This document shows, one piece after another, positions 10,366 through 16,482 of a DNA stretch of 32,828 bases. The notes below the pieces were generated by a model. That model did no database searches. It saw only the letters and a list, made by a program, of their open reading frames with translations, and was not told the DNA's origin. Each line of letters begins with the position of its first letter. Position 1 is the first letter of the stretch. The stretch spans positions 1 through 32,828 of the forward strand of contig JAHFTY010000017.1 of NCBI GenBank assembly GCA_023265365.1, read 5' to 3'. A program made the position numbers and the translations under genes. Source of the DNA: Acidobacteriota bacterium. Its GTDB lineage: Bacteria > Acidobacteriota > Terriglobia > 20CM-2-55-15.

Positions 10366-11595
10366 ATGGCGACGATGAATTTTGTCGAGTCCGTCCTCAT
10401 CGCACTGGCTTCGCTTCGCGCGAACCGCCTGCGCTCGCTGCTCACACTGCTCGGAGTCGTGATCGGGGTGACGACCGTGATCACGGTCGTCTCGTTCATT
10501 TCGGGGCTCAACAATTACGTCGAAACGAAGATCTTCAATCTCGGACCGGACGTCTTCATCGTGAGCCGCGCCTCACAGGTCATTACTTCTCTCGACGAGT
10601 TCCTGGAATCCCAAAAACGCAAGATGGTCACCATGGACGATCTGGCCGCGGTTCGCGCCGGTTGCACGAGCTGCAGGGCGGTCGGTGCGACGTTCCAGTC
10701 CAACGCCACGGTGAAGTATGGCCGGGATTTTCTGTCGCAGACTCCGGTGTTCAACTACACCCAGGAAATGATGATGATGCGCGGAATGGATTTGGGGGCG
10801 GGACGCGGTATCACGGACTACGACGTCGAGCACAGCCGGCCGATCTGCGTCATTGGGACGGAGGTGGCCGAGACGTTGTTTGCCGGGGTGGATCCGATCG
10901 GAAAGACGCTTCAGGTTGCGGATCAGGAATTCGAGATTGTCGGCGTTGGGGTGAAGCAGGGAAGTTCGCTCGGGACCTCTCTGGACAAGTGGGTTGCCCT
11001 GCCGATCTCGGTCGGCCTCAAGATGTTCGGCTCCCGGCGCTCGGTGCAGATCTATGGGAAAGCGAGAACGGAACGGCAACTGAACGAAGCGGAGGATCAG
11101 GCGCGCCTGGTACTGAGGATTCGGCGCCACGTGCCGTACGGCGCGAAGGACGACTTTGCCATCTCGGGCAATCAGACTTTCCTGGACCTGTGGGCGAGCA
11201 TCAGCCGCGCTTTCTTCGCGGTGACGATTGGCATCGCGTCGATCTCGCTGGTGGTCGGTGGAATCGTCGTGATGAACATCATGCTCGTTTCCGTTACGGA
11301 ACGGACCCGCGAGATCGGCGTCAGGAAAGCGCTTGGCGCGCGGCGCAGGGACATCATGCTCCAGTTCCTCATCGAGTCGGCGACGCTGTCGCTTGTCGGA
11401 GGATTGATCGGCATTGCGCTCGGTTCGGCCGTCGCCTTGACCGTCGCCAGTTTCACTCCGCTGCCCGCGGTCATCAAATGGTGGGCGATCGCTCTCGCAA
11501 TTTTCGTATCGACCGGCGTCGGGCTTTTCTTCGGAATCTATCCCGCAAACAAGGCCGCGAATCTCGATCCCATTGTGGCACTGCGCTATGAATGA
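10366..11595 (+). CDS. MacB/FtsX-type ABC transporter permease 1
   Basis: A 409-residue inner-membrane permease: N-terminal helix (about 20-45, LRSLLTLLGVVIGVTTVITVV), a periplasmic MacB core domain (about 50-270), then three C-terminal helices with the FtsX signature VTERTREIGVRKALGARRRDI. This class exports peptides, lipids or drugs, or acts mechanically on the periplasm, when joined to a LolD/MacB-type ATPase. No ATPase is nearby in the window. The frame can start at ATG 10366 or ATG 10375 (MNFVESVLIAL). A TATAAG box ends at 10365, nine bases before the second ATG, which favours 10375 if that box is the -10. It overlaps the next permease by 8 nt. Confidence 0.92.
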   Translation: MATMNFVESVLIALASLRANRLRSLLTLLGVVIGVTTVITVVSFISGLNNYVETKIFNLGPDVFIVSRASQVITSLDEFLESQKRKMVTMDDLAAVRAGCTSCRAVGATFQSNATVKYGRDFLSQTPVFNYTQEMMMMRGMDLGAGRGITDYDVEHSRPICVIGTEVAETLFAGVDPIGKTLQVADQEFEIVGVGVKQGSSLGTSLDKWVALPISVGLKMFGSRRSVQIYGKARTERQLNEAEDQARLVLRIRRHVPYGAKDDFAISGNQTFLDLWASISRAFFAVTIGIASISLVVGGIVVMNIMLVSVTERTREIGVRKALGARRRDIMLQFLIESATLSLVGGLIGIALGSAVALTVASFTPLPAVIKWWAIALAIFVSTGVGLFFGIYPANKAANLDPIVALRYE

Positions 11596-12832
11596 AACGC
11601 TGGCGCTGGCCCTCGACTCTTTGGTGAAGAACAAGCTGCGGTCGCTGCTCACCGTTCTTGGAATTGTCATTGGCGTGACCACGGTCATTGGAATGTCGTC
11701 GATCATCAGCGGCTTGAACAACTTCATTGTCGGGGCGATCCAGGGAATCGGCTCAAACGTGATTTTTATCGGGAAGTTCGGTCCGACGACGGGACGCATA
11801 ACTCCGGAAATACTGAACCGGAAAGACCTGACCATTGAGGACGCCGAGGCGATTCGGGAGTTGCCGACGATTCAATCCGTGGCGCCCATTCTGCAGCGCC
11901 GCCAATTTGCAACGAACGCCAAGCAGTACGTCGTCAAGTACAAGGATCAAACCGCGCGAAACACGATCATTCAGGGAGTGACGCCGAGTTTCCAGCAGGT
12001 GTTGAGCCTGGCCATTCAATCCGGCAGGTGGATCAACGATGCGGACCATAAGCACCGGGTGAACGTGGTGGTGCTCGGCTATGGGACCGCGAATACGCTG
12101 TTCCCTTCCGGTGTGGAGCCGGTGGACAAGGAAGTCGAGATCGAGGGAACGGTATTCCGGGTCATCGGCGTGTTGGAGAAGCGGAAGGATTCGCTGACCG
12201 GCGGAGACAATCCGAACGACAACCTCATCGCGATTCCGATCGGAACTTTCAGAAAAATGCATCCCGAGGCGCGAGACGTTCAGATTGGGGCAAAGCCCAT
12301 TTCGCAGGAGGCGTTGCCCCGGGCTCTGGACCAGATCGAAAACCTGCTGAGGCAGCGGAGAGGCGTGCCGCCAAACAAGGACAGCGACTTCGCGCTTTTC
12401 ACGCAGGACGCGATCATCGATATCTGGAATCAGATTTCGAGTGGCATTTTTGCCGTGATGCTGGCGATTTCTTCGGTGGCGCTTATGGTCGGAGGCGTCG
12501 GGGTGATGAACATCATGCTGGTGTCTGTCACGGAGCGGACCCGGGAAATCGGCGTGCGGAAAGCGATCGGGGCGACACGCCGGCACATCATGAGGCAGTT
12601 CCTGTTCGAGGCGATGGTGCTGACCGGAGTCGGAGGGATACTTGGGATTCTCGCCGGCGGCGGCGTGACATTGCTAATCCGGCTTATCGTTCCGTTCCTG
12701 CCGGCGCAGATGTCGGTTTTCTGGACCACGGTTGGATTCTGCACGTCTGTCGGAACGGGCCTCCTCTTCGGAATCTATCCCGCCTACCGCGCCGCGATGC
12801 TTGACCCCATCGAAGCATTGCGGTACGAATAA
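11588..12832 (+). CDS. MacB/FtsX-type ABC transporter permease 2
   Basis: A 414-residue paralogue of the preceding gene with the same layout: N-terminal helix (SLLTVLGIVIGVTTVIGM), MacB-type periplasmic core, and C-terminal three-helix FtsX domain with VTERTREIGVRKAIGATRRHI. The ATG at 11588 lies within the last codons of permease 1 (TATGAATGA), so the two are coupled in translation. Two permeases made together suggest a heterodimer, which would need one ATP-binding subunit encoded elsewhere. The frame stays open 5 codons upstream to a GTG, which I rejected because MNETLALALDSL matches the family start. Confidence 0.92.
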   Translation: MNETLALALDSLVKNKLRSLLTVLGIVIGVTTVIGMSSIISGLNNFIVGAIQGIGSNVIFIGKFGPTTGRITPEILNRKDLTIEDAEAIRELPTIQSVAPILQRRQFATNAKQYVVKYKDQTARNTIIQGVTPSFQQVLSLAIQSGRWINDADHKHRVNVVVLGYGTANTLFPSGVEPVDKEVEIEGTVFRVIGVLEKRKDSLTGGDNPNDNLIAIPIGTFRKMHPEARDVQIGAKPISQEALPRALDQIENLLRQRRGVPPNKDSDFALFTQDAIIDIWNQISSGIFAVMLAISSVALMVGGVGVMNIMLVSVTERTREIGVRKAIGATRRHIMRQFLFEAMVLTGVGGILGILAGGGVTLLIRLIVPFLPAQMSVFWTTVGFCTSVGTGLLFGIYPAYRAAMLDPIEALRYE

Positions 12833-12855: not shown

Positions 12856-13962
12856 ATGCGAAAGCTGTTACTGGCCACGTGTCTGGTCCTGCTTGGATCC
12901 AGCGTGATCCTCGCTCAGAAACATACAATCATCGCTCTCGGGCACAATGACTTCAGCGTCAATGAAATCGATCCCGCGACAGGGAAAACCGTTCAGAAGT
13001 TCACTGCCAAAAATCAGCCGCACGAAGCCGCGATTTCGCCGGACGGAAAAACAATCTACGCCTCCGTTCCGCAGGCCGGCCACGTTGTGATTCTCGGACC
13101 GACCCTGGAAGAAAAAGCCAGGATCGAGACCCCGTTCTTTCACGGCCGTACGCCGCAACCTCCCGCCGCCCCCCGTGGCGGAGGACAGCGTGGCGGTCAG
13201 CGCGGCGGCGGAGAAGGCGTCGGCGCACCGGCGATGGTGGGTGAGAGCGCGCCGGACAGTTCGTCGCCCCATGGCATGGGCCTGAACACGGACGGAAGCA
13301 AACTCTACATCGGCGTCGAAAACGGGGATGTGCCGGGTGTCGTCGTGTACGACACGAAGGCGAACAAAGTCCTCAAGAAGATCGATCTGGTGTTGAAGGG
13401 CGGCCACTATCTTCAGGTCCAGCCGAAAACGGACAAGGTGTACTACCCGCACCGCACCGATAACCGCGTCATCGTGATCGACGGCAAGACCGACACGATC
13501 AGGAAAATCATCGATGTTCCCGGCGGGCCGGTCGGCGTCGATTTCGCGCCGAACGGCGAGGTCTGGATTCATGGCGATGGAAACAACGGCATCGAAGGCA
13601 CCGTGACCGTGATCGACAGTAAGACCGACACGATCAGCAAGACCATCCAGACTCCCGGGAAAGGCGCGGGGCGGATGGCGGTTTCGCCGAACGGGAAGTT
13701 TGCGGCATCGACCCACGGGGACTCCAAAGACGTGGCCATCATCGACGCCGAAAAGAAGGAAGTCATCGCCAGCGTGGAAGTGGGCGGTCTCGGTTTCCCG
13801 CTGTTCTCGCCGGACAGCGCAATGCTCTATGTGATGGTTTCTCCGCTCAGCGAAATCGCCGCCATCGATCTGAAAACGATGAAGGTCGTGAACCGCTGGA
13901 AAGCGGGGCAGTCGACCTTTGGAGGCGGCATCCGTTACACAAACGGCCGGACATCGAACTGA
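12856..13962 (+). CDS. secreted YncE-like beta-propeller protein
   Basis: A 368-residue protein with a clear signal peptide (RKLLLATCLVLLGSSVILA, cleavage near residue 20). The remainder is a seven-bladed propeller of the YncE/40-residue type. Repeated blade signatures are visible: EIDPATGKTVQKF, AAISPDGKTIYAS, VIDGKTDTIRKI, VIDSKTDTISKTI, MAVSPNGKFAAS and IIDAEKKEVIASVEVGG. A Gly/Arg-rich loop (RGGGQRGGQRGGG, about 106-118) is inserted between blades 2 and 3 and looks disordered. AAAAAAGGAGA gives a strong ribosome binding site 6 nt before the ATG. It follows the permease pair by 23 nt, so an export-linked role is possible but unproved. The function of YncE-like proteins is not well defined. 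Confidence 0.88.
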   Translation: MRKLLLATCLVLLGSSVILAQKHTIIALGHNDFSVNEIDPATGKTVQKFTAKNQPHEAAISPDGKTIYASVPQAGHVVILGPTLEEKARIETPFFHGRTPQPPAAPRGGGQRGGQRGGGEGVGAPAMVGESAPDSSSPHGMGLNTDGSKLYIGVENGDVPGVVVYDTKANKVLKKIDLVLKGGHYLQVQPKTDKVYYPHRTDNRVIVIDGKTDTIRKIIDVPGGPVGVDFAPNGEVWIHGDGNNGIEGTVTVIDSKTDTISKTIQTPGKGAGRMAVSPNGKFAASTHGDSKDVAIIDAEKKEVIASVEVGGLGFPLFSPDSAMLYVMVSPLSEIAAIDLKTMKVVNRWKAGQSTFGGGIRYTNGRTSN

Positions 13963-13981: not shown

Positions 13982-14317
13982 ATGACTAAAGAGGAATACT
14001 TCGAGAAGGCCGTGGACGCGTTCGGGGAAGACAGGCTGGACGACGCGATCGAGACGTACAAGAAAGCGTTGGAAATCGACCCGAATTACCAGGACGCGCT
14101 CCACGGTTTGGGCATGGCGCTGCACCATCGAGGCCGGGTCGACGAGGCCATCGACGTCGCCGGGCAACTGATTGCGATCGACCCGGACGATATCCTTGCG
14201 CATACCAGTCTTTCCATGTTTTATATGTCTCAGGGCAAGATCGAGGAGGCGGAAAAGGAAGGAAATGCCGCCCGGATCCTGGGATGGAAACAAGAACTCC
14301 GAAAGGACCCTAAATAG
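13982..14317 (+). CDS. small TPR-repeat protein
   Basis: A 111-residue cytoplasmic protein (no signal peptide) made of about three tetratricopeptide repeats. Unit 1 is EEYFEKAVDAFGEDRLDDAIETYKKALEIDPN split over residues 4-35. Unit 2 is YQDALHGLGMALHHRGRVDEAI (37-58) and unit 3 AHTSLSMFYMSQGKIEEAEKE (73-93). The TPR signature residues (A8, Y26, A29, P34) are in place. TPRs are protein-binding scaffolds; small TPR proteins often act with pili or secretion ATPases, and a PilB-like gene follows after 83 nt. I placed the start at ATG 13982, right after a TACAAT box; the frame is open 21 codons further upstream but inside the YncE-like gene. Confidence 0.8.
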   Translation: MTKEEYFEKAVDAFGEDRLDDAIETYKKALEIDPNYQDALHGLGMALHHRGRVDEAIDVAGQLIAIDPDDILAHTSLSMFYMSQGKIEEAEKEGNAARILGWKQELRKDPK

Positions 14318-14380: not shown

Positions 14381-14400
14381 CTTCCGAAGATGTGGGGTCA

Positions 14401-16482
14401 ATGTCTGCTGTAGCGGTCGAATCTGATCAACTCGTTCAGTTCCTAAAGAACGTCAAACTCTTCGCCGAACTTAGTCCGGAAAGCCTCGCGAAGCTCGGAA
14501 CCTGCCTCAAGACGGCCGAGTTTCCGCCGGCCGAGGTCATTGTTCGCGAAGGGGCCCCCGGCGTATCGATGTACATCATCAAGTCGGGGCTGGTCGAGGT
14601 TCGCAAAAAGGATCCCGCCACCGGAATCGACTTCCTCGTCGCCCAGCTCAGCTCCGGCGCCGCCGTCGGTGAAATGTCCCTCCTCACCGGCAAGCCGCGG
14701 TCGGCGACCGTTTCGACGGTCCAGCCCACCGTCGTTTTTACGCTGACGCGCGCCGACTTCCGGAATCTGCTGACGCAGCATCCGGAAATTTCACTCGGTC
14801 TGGCCCGCATCCTTGCGGAGCGTCTCGAAGATGCCACCAAGCAGGTCGGCATCGAGTACGTCAGTCTTCTCAAAGGCAACTTCGATCCTCGAGTCGTCGG
14901 GCTGATTCCACAGTCCGTGGTGCAACTCCACAAGGTCGTGCCCATCGCCTTCGTGAACAACTCGGTCACGCTGGCCATGGTGAATCCTTCGAATCTCGTC
15001 GCTTTCGACGACGTCCGCCGCTACATCAAGGGCGTCATCATCGAGCCGGTGGTCTGTACCGAAGACGATTTCCGGAAGTTCCTCGAGCAGGTCTATCCCA
15101 ATCTGATGGGAGTCAAAGAGGAGGCGAAGAAGGAGATCATCGATCGTTCCCAGGCGGAGCGCAAAGAGGACAAGAAAAAAGACGAGAAGAAGAAGTCCAT
15201 GATGGACCAGCCGATGCAGAGTCTCGAGGAGCTGCAGAACGAGATCCTCGGCGGCCTCGAGGTTCAGGACCAGGAAGAAGAAAAAGTCGCCAACAGCATG
15301 GAGCTGACGAGCGCGTCCGAGGACGCCCCGGTGGTCCGGCTGGCCAACAATATCCTCGCCGTCGCCATCAAGAAGGGCGCCAGCGACATCCATATCGAGC
15401 CTCAGGAAAAGGGAGTCGTCCTGCGGCTGCGCGTGGACGGCGTGCTGCGAGTCGAGAATATTCTCTCGAAGAAGATCCAGCTGCCGCTGGCGTCCCGTTT
15501 CAAGATTCTTGCCCGGCTCGACATTTCGGAACGGCGTCTGCCCCAGGACGGACGCATCTCCATCAAGATTGACGATCGCGGCATCGACTTCCGTGTCTCG
15601 ACGGTCCCCGCGAAGTTCGGCGAAAAGATCGTCATGCGTATTCTCGACAAGAGCGGATCGCTGCTCCCACTCGACAAGATCATCGTGCATACGCCCACCG
15701 TCGAAAAGCTGCGATGGATGATCAACCAGCCCTACGGCATCATCTACGTGACCGGACCGACGGGTTCCGGAAAAACCACCTCGCTGTACAGTTCGCTCAA
15801 CGAAATCAACTCGCCGGAAATCAATATTTCCACCGCCGAAGACCCGATCGAATACGATCTCGCGGGTCTCTGCCAGGTTCAGACGCACAAGGATATCGGG
15901 CTCGATTTCGCGCGCATCCTTCGCGCATTCCTCCGGCAGGACCCGGACGTCATTCTCGTCGGTGAAACTCGCGACACGGAAACCGCTAAGATTTCCGTCG
16001 AAGCCGCGCTCACCGGCCATCTCGTGTTTACGACGCTCCATACCAACGATGCGTGCAGCTCGTTTACGCGTCTGGAAGAGATGGGAATCGAGCCGTTCCT
16101 GATGGGGAACTCGACCATCGGCATTCTTGCTCAGCGCCTTGCCCGCCGAATCTGCGGGAAGTGCAAGAAGGAAGTCGAGGTCGACGATACGACTCTCGGC
16201 TACTTCGGGTACAACCGCGAAACCGCGCCGAAGTTCTACAAGGGCGAGGGATGCGAGAGGTGCAGCGGGTCGGGCTATAAAGGCCGCGTCGGTATTTACG
16301 AGCTGCTGCTGATGAACGAAGAACTGAAACGGACCGTTTCCAACGGCGCGAAAACCGACGAGATCAAACGCGTCGCCATCGAAAGCGGCATGATCGATCT
16401 CAAGCACTACGCCATGATCCTCATGGCGGAAGGCCACACCACCGTCGAAGAAGTTCTGACGAACCTGGTCGTTTCCGAGTAG
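14401..16482 (+). CDS. PilB/GspE-type assembly ATPase with N-terminal cyclic-nucleotide-binding domain
   Basis: A 693-residue cytoplasmic secretion ATPase that should power type IV pilus or type II secretion assembly. Residues 10-140 form a cNMP-binding (CRP-like) domain with an intact phosphate-binding cassette GEMSLLTGKPRSATV (90-104; E91, R100). Residues about 150-232 match the second half of the T2SSE_N/MshEN domain. A Lys/Glu-rich linker follows (237-300). The ATPase core has Walker A GPTGSGKTT (452-460), Asp box AEDPIEYD (479-486), Walker B LRQDPDVILVGE (511-522), His box TTLHTND (544-550) and the zinc cysteines C585/C588/C618/C621. ATG 14401 was chosen; an in-frame GTG lies at 14392. 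The fused sensor suggests direct nucleotide control. No other pilus gene is in the window. Confidence 0.93.
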   Translation: MSAVAVESDQLVQFLKNVKLFAELSPESLAKLGTCLKTAEFPPAEVIVREGAPGVSMYIIKSGLVEVRKKDPATGIDFLVAQLSSGAAVGEMSLLTGKPRSATVSTVQPTVVFTLTRADFRNLLTQHPEISLGLARILAERLEDATKQVGIEYVSLLKGNFDPRVVGLIPQSVVQLHKVVPIAFVNNSVTLAMVNPSNLVAFDDVRRYIKGVIIEPVVCTEDDFRKFLEQVYPNLMGVKEEAKKEIIDRSQAERKEDKKKDEKKKSMMDQPMQSLEELQNEILGGLEVQDQEEEKVANSMELTSASEDAPVVRLANNILAVAIKKGASDIHIEPQEKGVVLRLRVDGVLRVENILSKKIQLPLASRFKILARLDISERRLPQDGRISIKIDDRGIDFRVSTVPAKFGEKIVMRILDKSGSLLPLDKIIVHTPTVEKLRWMINQPYGIIYVTGPTGSGKTTSLYSSLNEINSPEINISTAEDPIEYDLAGLCQVQTHKDIGLDFARILRAFLRQDPDVILVGETRDTETAKISVEAALTGHLVFTTLHTNDACSSFTRLEEMGIEPFLMGNSTIGILAQRLARRICGKCKKEVEVDDTTLGYFGYNRETAPKFYKGEGCERCSGSGYKGRVGIYELLLMNEELKRTVSNGAKTDEIKRVAIESGMIDLKHYAMILMAEGHTTVEEVLTNLVVSE

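Follow-up and report, generated by a model that had tools for sequence, protein, structure and literature searches.

An orphan acidobacterial PilB/GspE-type ATPase with a cyclic-nucleotide-binding domain in place of one half of MshEN

A 32,828-nucleotide stretch of the genome of a soil acidobacterium (GCA_023265365.1, contig JAHFTY010000017.1, positions 1 to 32,828; here called the window) encodes an assembly ATPase in which a cyclic-nucleotide-binding domain (CNB) stands in the place of the first half of the MshEN domain (MshEN_N). Its sequence suggests an orphan extension-type member of the PilB/GspE superfamily that is allosterically controlled by cAMP (or cGMP), a reading to which we give a probability of about 0.55. 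A motor that carries a CNB in the c-di-GMP-sensing place would probably be switched by a different messenger. If true, this would let cAMP act quickly and directly on pilus or secretion activity.

Domain architecture of the ATPase

The open reading frame of the ATPase (14392..16482, + strand; CNB-MshEN_C-T2SSE, delimited by ORF reading and Pfam) encodes 696 amino acids from a GTG and 693 from an ATG at 14401. The first start codon in three of five close homologues (L010-L012) falls at the same position as this ATG, which is the probable start of the protein. A Pfam scan of the 696-aa frame, with residues numbered from the GTG, identified cNMP_binding (residues 43-130, E 7.6e-19, 67.9 bits against a gathering cut-off of 27.5), MshEN (153-237, E 1.4e-15) and T2SSE (308-689, E 9.6e-124), in the order that the preliminary description of this DNA had proposed. 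A CRP/FNR-type HTH domain was not found in the protein by Pfam at E values up to 1. The same architecture recurs in 11 further loci from separate records, which rules out an assembly chimera or a chance join.

Numbered from the ATG, the CNB spans residues 11-145 (14431..14835, +; PF00027 and PDB CNB domains) around a Pfam core at 14518-14781 (+). Column conservation marks the phosphate-binding cassette GEMSLLTGKPRSATV at residues 90-104 (14668..14712, +; G90-E91-M-S-L-L-T-G-K-P-R100-S-A-T-V104). A CRP-like cNMP domain with a complete cassette, including E91 and R100, had been proposed for the N-terminus of the ATPase, and the PF00027 match and the ATG numbering agree on it. The domain is followed by the second half of the MshEN/N1 domain, MshEN_C (14848..15102, +; PF05157), which has PilF and PilB chains among its PDB matches. 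Next comes the charged linker of the preliminary description (15103..15300, +), which is also variable: none of its 66 columns is invariant among 12 CNB proteins. The T2SSE motor (N2D and CTD; PF00437 and invariant motor motifs) occupies 15313..16458 (+).

The motor motifs of the ATPase are intact. Walker A (GPTGSGKT, 15754..15777, +; identified by motif conservation), GASDIH[IV]EP, LVGETRD and TTLHTN are kept in the 12 CNB proteins, and the four cysteines C585, C588, C618 and C621 (16153..16263, +) are invariant among them. A tetracysteine motif in the C-terminal domain is a mark of PilB/GspE extension-type ATPases. The protein scores 558.7 bits against the NCBIfam PilB model (TIGR02538, cut-off 675.65) and 545.8 bits against that for GspE (TIGR02533, cut-off 630.25); since both scores lie below the cut-offs, we refer to it as a PilB/GspE-type ATPase rather than as PilB.

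In VcMshE, the c-di-GMP site is made up largely by two 24-residue motifs (residues 9-61) and only to a small extent by MshEN_C (65-145), as described in PMC5013675. In the canonical PilB of the window genome (L001), the Pfam MshEN match covers residues 56-143, after two 24-residue motifs at residues 3 and 32. To look for this motif pair in 44 ATPase rows, pairs of 24-mers at spacings of 27-33 were scored against the published RLG...Q motif, with Met additionally accepted at one place. The canonical PilB L001 reached 20 of 22 at the published 29-residue spacing, the 13 rows of the PilB clade 16-20, and the PilBs of all seven sampled carriers of the CNB form 17-20. The motif was missing in 12 of 12 CNB proteins, where the best scores were 8-10 of 22 at scattered places; the best for the window protein (10/22) lay inside MshEN_C. 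The Pfam MshEN model thus corresponds to MshEN_C alone, and the proposals that the domain is reduced to its second half and that the CNB stands in place of the other both hold. Judged by these scores, the c-di-GMP half is gone from the CNB clade, with the CNB ending where MshEN_C begins. Seven rows without a CNB (L002, L017, L018, L019, L091, L092, and L093) likewise scored only 8-11 of 22. Loss of MshEN_N is not unique to CNB proteins, and some ATPases lose it without gaining a CNB.

Conservation and distribution of the sensor

Cassettes were compared across 22 sources, of which 21 yielded sequence and 15 distinct sequences were obtained, with the consensus GEM[SA]LLTG[KQ]PR[STV]A[TS]V. In the cassette 11 of 15 columns are invariant, compared with 17 of 120 across the remainder of the CNB (Fisher 3.8e-6), and E91 and R100 are present in every distinct sequence. 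From the substitution patterns, the CNB sensor is kept by selection. Four of five comparisons between the window and its relatives gave the CNB a dN/dS of 0.02-0.07 (in the fifth, dS is saturated) and the motor one of 0.07-0.09, above the CNB value in each of the four. Five other pairs gave 0.02-0.18 for the CNB, and in three pairs of distant relatives (L053/L054, L052/L053, and L055/L056) the CNB evolves faster (0.14-0.18 versus 0.06-0.14 for the motor). All these values are rough because synonymous sites are often near saturation.

PDB relatives of the CNB include the cAMP/cGMP-binding domains of PKA, PKG, MloK1 and CRP; MloK1 (1vp6) matches with E 1.1e-13 by sequence and 2.6e-19 with a profile built from 9 of the 12 sequences. 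AlphaFold models based on a 12-row alignment had a mean pLDDT of 65.0 for residues 1-242 and of 48.9 for the whole protein, with values below 50 in the CNB core, too poor for inspection of the pocket. A Foldseek search with the 1-242 model placed cAMP-bound CRPs on top (7pzb, E 8.8e-7), with a TM score of 0.32 and an rmsd of 16.2 that support the fold class only.

A quick tree of MshEN_C plus T2SSE was constructed from 44 rows. Frames shorter than 380 aa had been removed beforehand, as had any that showed a PilT-like pattern or a Walker A ahead of residue 180 (L004 among them) and L085, which duplicates L001. All 12 CNB proteins fall into a single clade (SH-aLRT 100). This clade shares an open fork with canonical PilBs and further ATPases, where branches are long and the deep forks are weak. 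The full form is present in at least 7 of 396 evenly drawn Acidobacteriota genomes (the window genome, G265, G121, G073, G355, G107, and G116). After these, the best genome matched at E 1.8e-23; the CNB-only matches of this draw could conceal divergent forms. The N-terminal half was matched in 11 of 61 relatives, including 8 of the 11 from the window's own family. Eight of the ten matches outside the window genome have Walker A in frame; L101 and L108 lack it within the stretch examined. A scan of genome contigs with exact peptide patterns, which reach close relatives only, points to Candidatus Sulfopaludibacter MAGs (Acidobacteriota, Bryobacterales) as the nearest relatives with a name, at 84% identity.

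Besides the Acidobacteriota draw, the search covered the phylum of L018 (82 genomes), in which none of the 31 genomes with a match at E 1e-25 spans both domains, and plasmids, where none of the 356 records with a match covers 80% of the CNB-MshEN_C query. L014, titled 'Bacteroidota bacterium CSMAG_3093', falls in the same phylum listing as the genomes of L015, L017, L018, and L019, and its record title may therefore be wrong.

Two further genomes carry variants of the fusion. G280 (L058:994-2844, +) encodes a CNB-MshEN_C-T2SSE protein whose cassette has Asp for Glu (GDIGLLLNQPRTATI) and whose motor reads as PilT-like from its sequence. G136 (L059, frame from 4312, +) has a truncated CNB/MshEN_C-like frame near a contig end, without a recognisable cassette. 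Searching the phylum with the G280 protein returned six genomes at E 1e-17, namely these two and four PilB-type carriers. These forms suggest that CNB and MshEN_C may have joined such motors more than once, or may have passed between them. A 261-aa frame in which the first part of the CNB is fused to the last part of T2SSE (G229:C60:37996-38598) is probably a decayed or deleted copy. Acidobacteriota also have PilB-like ATPases with extra C-terminal zinc-ribbon segments (L088:1222-3213, -; L096:943-2823, +).

Genomic context and candidate messengers

The gene for a small TPR protein (13982..14317, +; Pfam TPR) lies just upstream of the ATPase gene and is found at the same place in all five close relatives (L009-L013). 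It was not seen among the neighbours scanned in distant loci; being common to close relatives only, it was rejected as a conserved operon partner. Farther upstream are two tandem MacB/FtsX-like permease genes (10366-12832, +), both upstream also in L009, L011, and L013. Between this pair and the TPR gene is a WD40/beta-propeller gene (12856-13962, +) with no counterpart in L009-L013 at E 1e-8, perhaps a lineage-specific insertion.

No other pilus gene is present among the scanned ORFs of the window. In six distant loci, none of 24 neighbouring genes (four of them without any Pfam match) belongs to a pilus or secretion family in Pfam, and they have no common theme except a GAF-HD_5 gene in genus g5. 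In both genomes of this genus (L053:10238-12517, +; L054:10813-12900, +), the ATPase gene is arranged head to head with this HD-GYP-like gene, whose product is perhaps a c-di-GMP phosphodiesterase beside the motor. The neighbours scanned in the four remaining distant loci did not include it.

The CNB ATPase gene is an orphan, with no platform gene beside it. The genome has 11 T2SSE matches in all, 9 of them over the cut-off, and seven T2SSF matches on four contigs. Contig C307 has a separate pilB-pilC-pilS-pilR cluster, in which a PilS-type histidine kinase gene and one for a sigma-54 response regulator accompany pilB and pilC. Contig C235 carries a T2SS run with T2SSF at the contig edge, two N_methyl pilin-like genes, T2SSK, a PilN-domain gene and T2SSM. 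A second orphan motor of the genome is a T2SSE-only ATPase adjoining a DnaJ-domain gene (L141:3420-5230, -, contig C5), in which neither MshEN nor a sensor was found.

The genome contains eight class III cyclase matches and seven GGDEF matches, so that both messengers are plausible. The pattern of metal Asp, Lys/Asp and Asn/Arg is clear in cyclases L061 and L065; in L060 and in L063, one residue of the pair is missing. We take the Lys/Asp pair in the former two to denote adenine-type (adenylate) specificity. In the draw of 396 genomes, a cyclase at E 1e-10 was found in 7 of 7 carriers versus 239 of 389 non-carriers (p 0.048), and at least three matches, counted by hand from the table, in 5 of 7 versus 46 of 389 (p 0.0005). 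Within family f2, the latter numbers are 3/3 versus 0/41 of those listed (p 7.6e-5); relatedness is ignored in all three p values. In two of the carriers, G355 and G107, a single match reaches E 1e-10. A further, hand-picked set had cyclases in 12 of 12 carriers versus 6 of 10 non-carriers. On contig C72 of the window genome, a protein (L138:687-2897, +) combines Lactamase_B_2, a weak receiver, cNMP_binding and GGDEF domains in Pfam and might couple cyclic mononucleotides to the synthesis of c-di-GMP.

Proposed mechanism, alternatives and known systems

The preliminary description had suggested that the motor responds directly to a cyclic nucleotide. The part of this claim that concerns a cyclic-mononucleotide input is supported by cassette conservation and the class III cyclases; we infer the rest, namely that the CNB binds cAMP, how the ligand acts directly on the motor and which machine is served. 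In the proposed mechanism, cAMP (or cGMP) would occupy the cassette and close the helix at the CNB C-terminus (roughly residues 128-148, where block confidence in the AlphaFold model drops from 78 to 49). Since this helix runs almost directly into MshEN_C, its closure would reposition the N1 domain, and the shift would alter N1 seating on the hexamer or on the platform/stator and so switch the motor. With no platform gene nearby, the ATPase most likely serves a machine that has its own ATPase. One candidate is the type IVa pilus of contig C307, for which it would be an alternative, cAMP-tuned motor. As a tentative extension, a c-di-GMP-type PilB and a cAMP-type paralogue might load onto the same pilus machine, such that two messengers choose the extension motor and cAMP acts directly on the motor and not via transcription.

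Ligand-free CNB domains, and ones that serve as oligomerisation modules, are numerous in bacteria, and the CNB here could be a structural module for dimerisation or localisation in an ATPase regulated by its partners. The broken cassettes of the G280 and G136 forms lend this some weight; in the PilB-type clade, however, the cassette far exceeds the remaining CNB in conservation and always retains both key residues, and we regard a ligand-free module as rather unlikely. It is less probable still that the sensor serves a ligand other than cAMP, be it cGMP, cCMP/cUMP, a cyclic dinucleotide or a non-nucleotide. Among the 15 distinct sequences, the cassette Arg is followed by Ser in 8, Thr in 6 and Val in 1, a variation that makes cGMP possible; Thr at this place favours cGMP, and the Pfam Guanylate_cyc family alone does not separate adenylate from guanylate cyclases. 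The Lys/Asp pair, presumably adenine-type, in at least two cyclases of the genome points instead to cAMP, and to our knowledge cyclic dinucleotides do not fit a canonical CNB cassette.

The machine served may also differ from that proposed, if the protein powers type II secretion or a different filament system. Its PilB and GspE scores are close, both under the cut-offs, and the contig with the T2SS cluster, C235, has no T2SSE match. That system may, however, have its own GspE, since an ATPase on contig C333 runs off the contig end. In the tree, whose deep forks are weak where long branches meet, the ATPases of C179 and C333 fall outside the open fork that the CNB clade shares with canonical PilBs and others. 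We consider service to a system other than a type IV pilus about as unlikely as the ligand-free module.

The CNB and its phosphate-binding cassette are common to MloK1, the PKA/PKG regulatory regions and CRP, in which the output is a channel, kinase or DNA-binding domain, whereas here it is a secretion-type motor. The mycobacterial protein lysine acetyltransferase Pat (4ava) also has a CNB at the enzyme N-terminus; its enzyme is unrelated, and in the window protein the fusion replaces an existing second-messenger sensor. Assembly ATPases are tuned by c-di-GMP through MshEN, a domain reported beside REC, HD-GYP, CheA, CheX, cyclase and kinase domains (PMC5013675, section 12); a cNMP domain is not among the partners named there. 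Nor was replacement of MshEN_N by a CNB found in titles and abstract openings among the open-access matches listed, and public domain databases may well already show this architecture. MshE, PilB and PilF share with the window protein the motor, MshEN_C and the N-terminal place of the sensor, but keep MshEN_N, the main c-di-GMP site, where the window protein has the CNB (PMC5013675). Type IV pili are under cAMP control via Vfr/CRP, at transcription (PMC11656802). If the cAMP reading is right, messenger and organelle class are the same in the two cases, but in the window protein cAMP would act on the motor itself.
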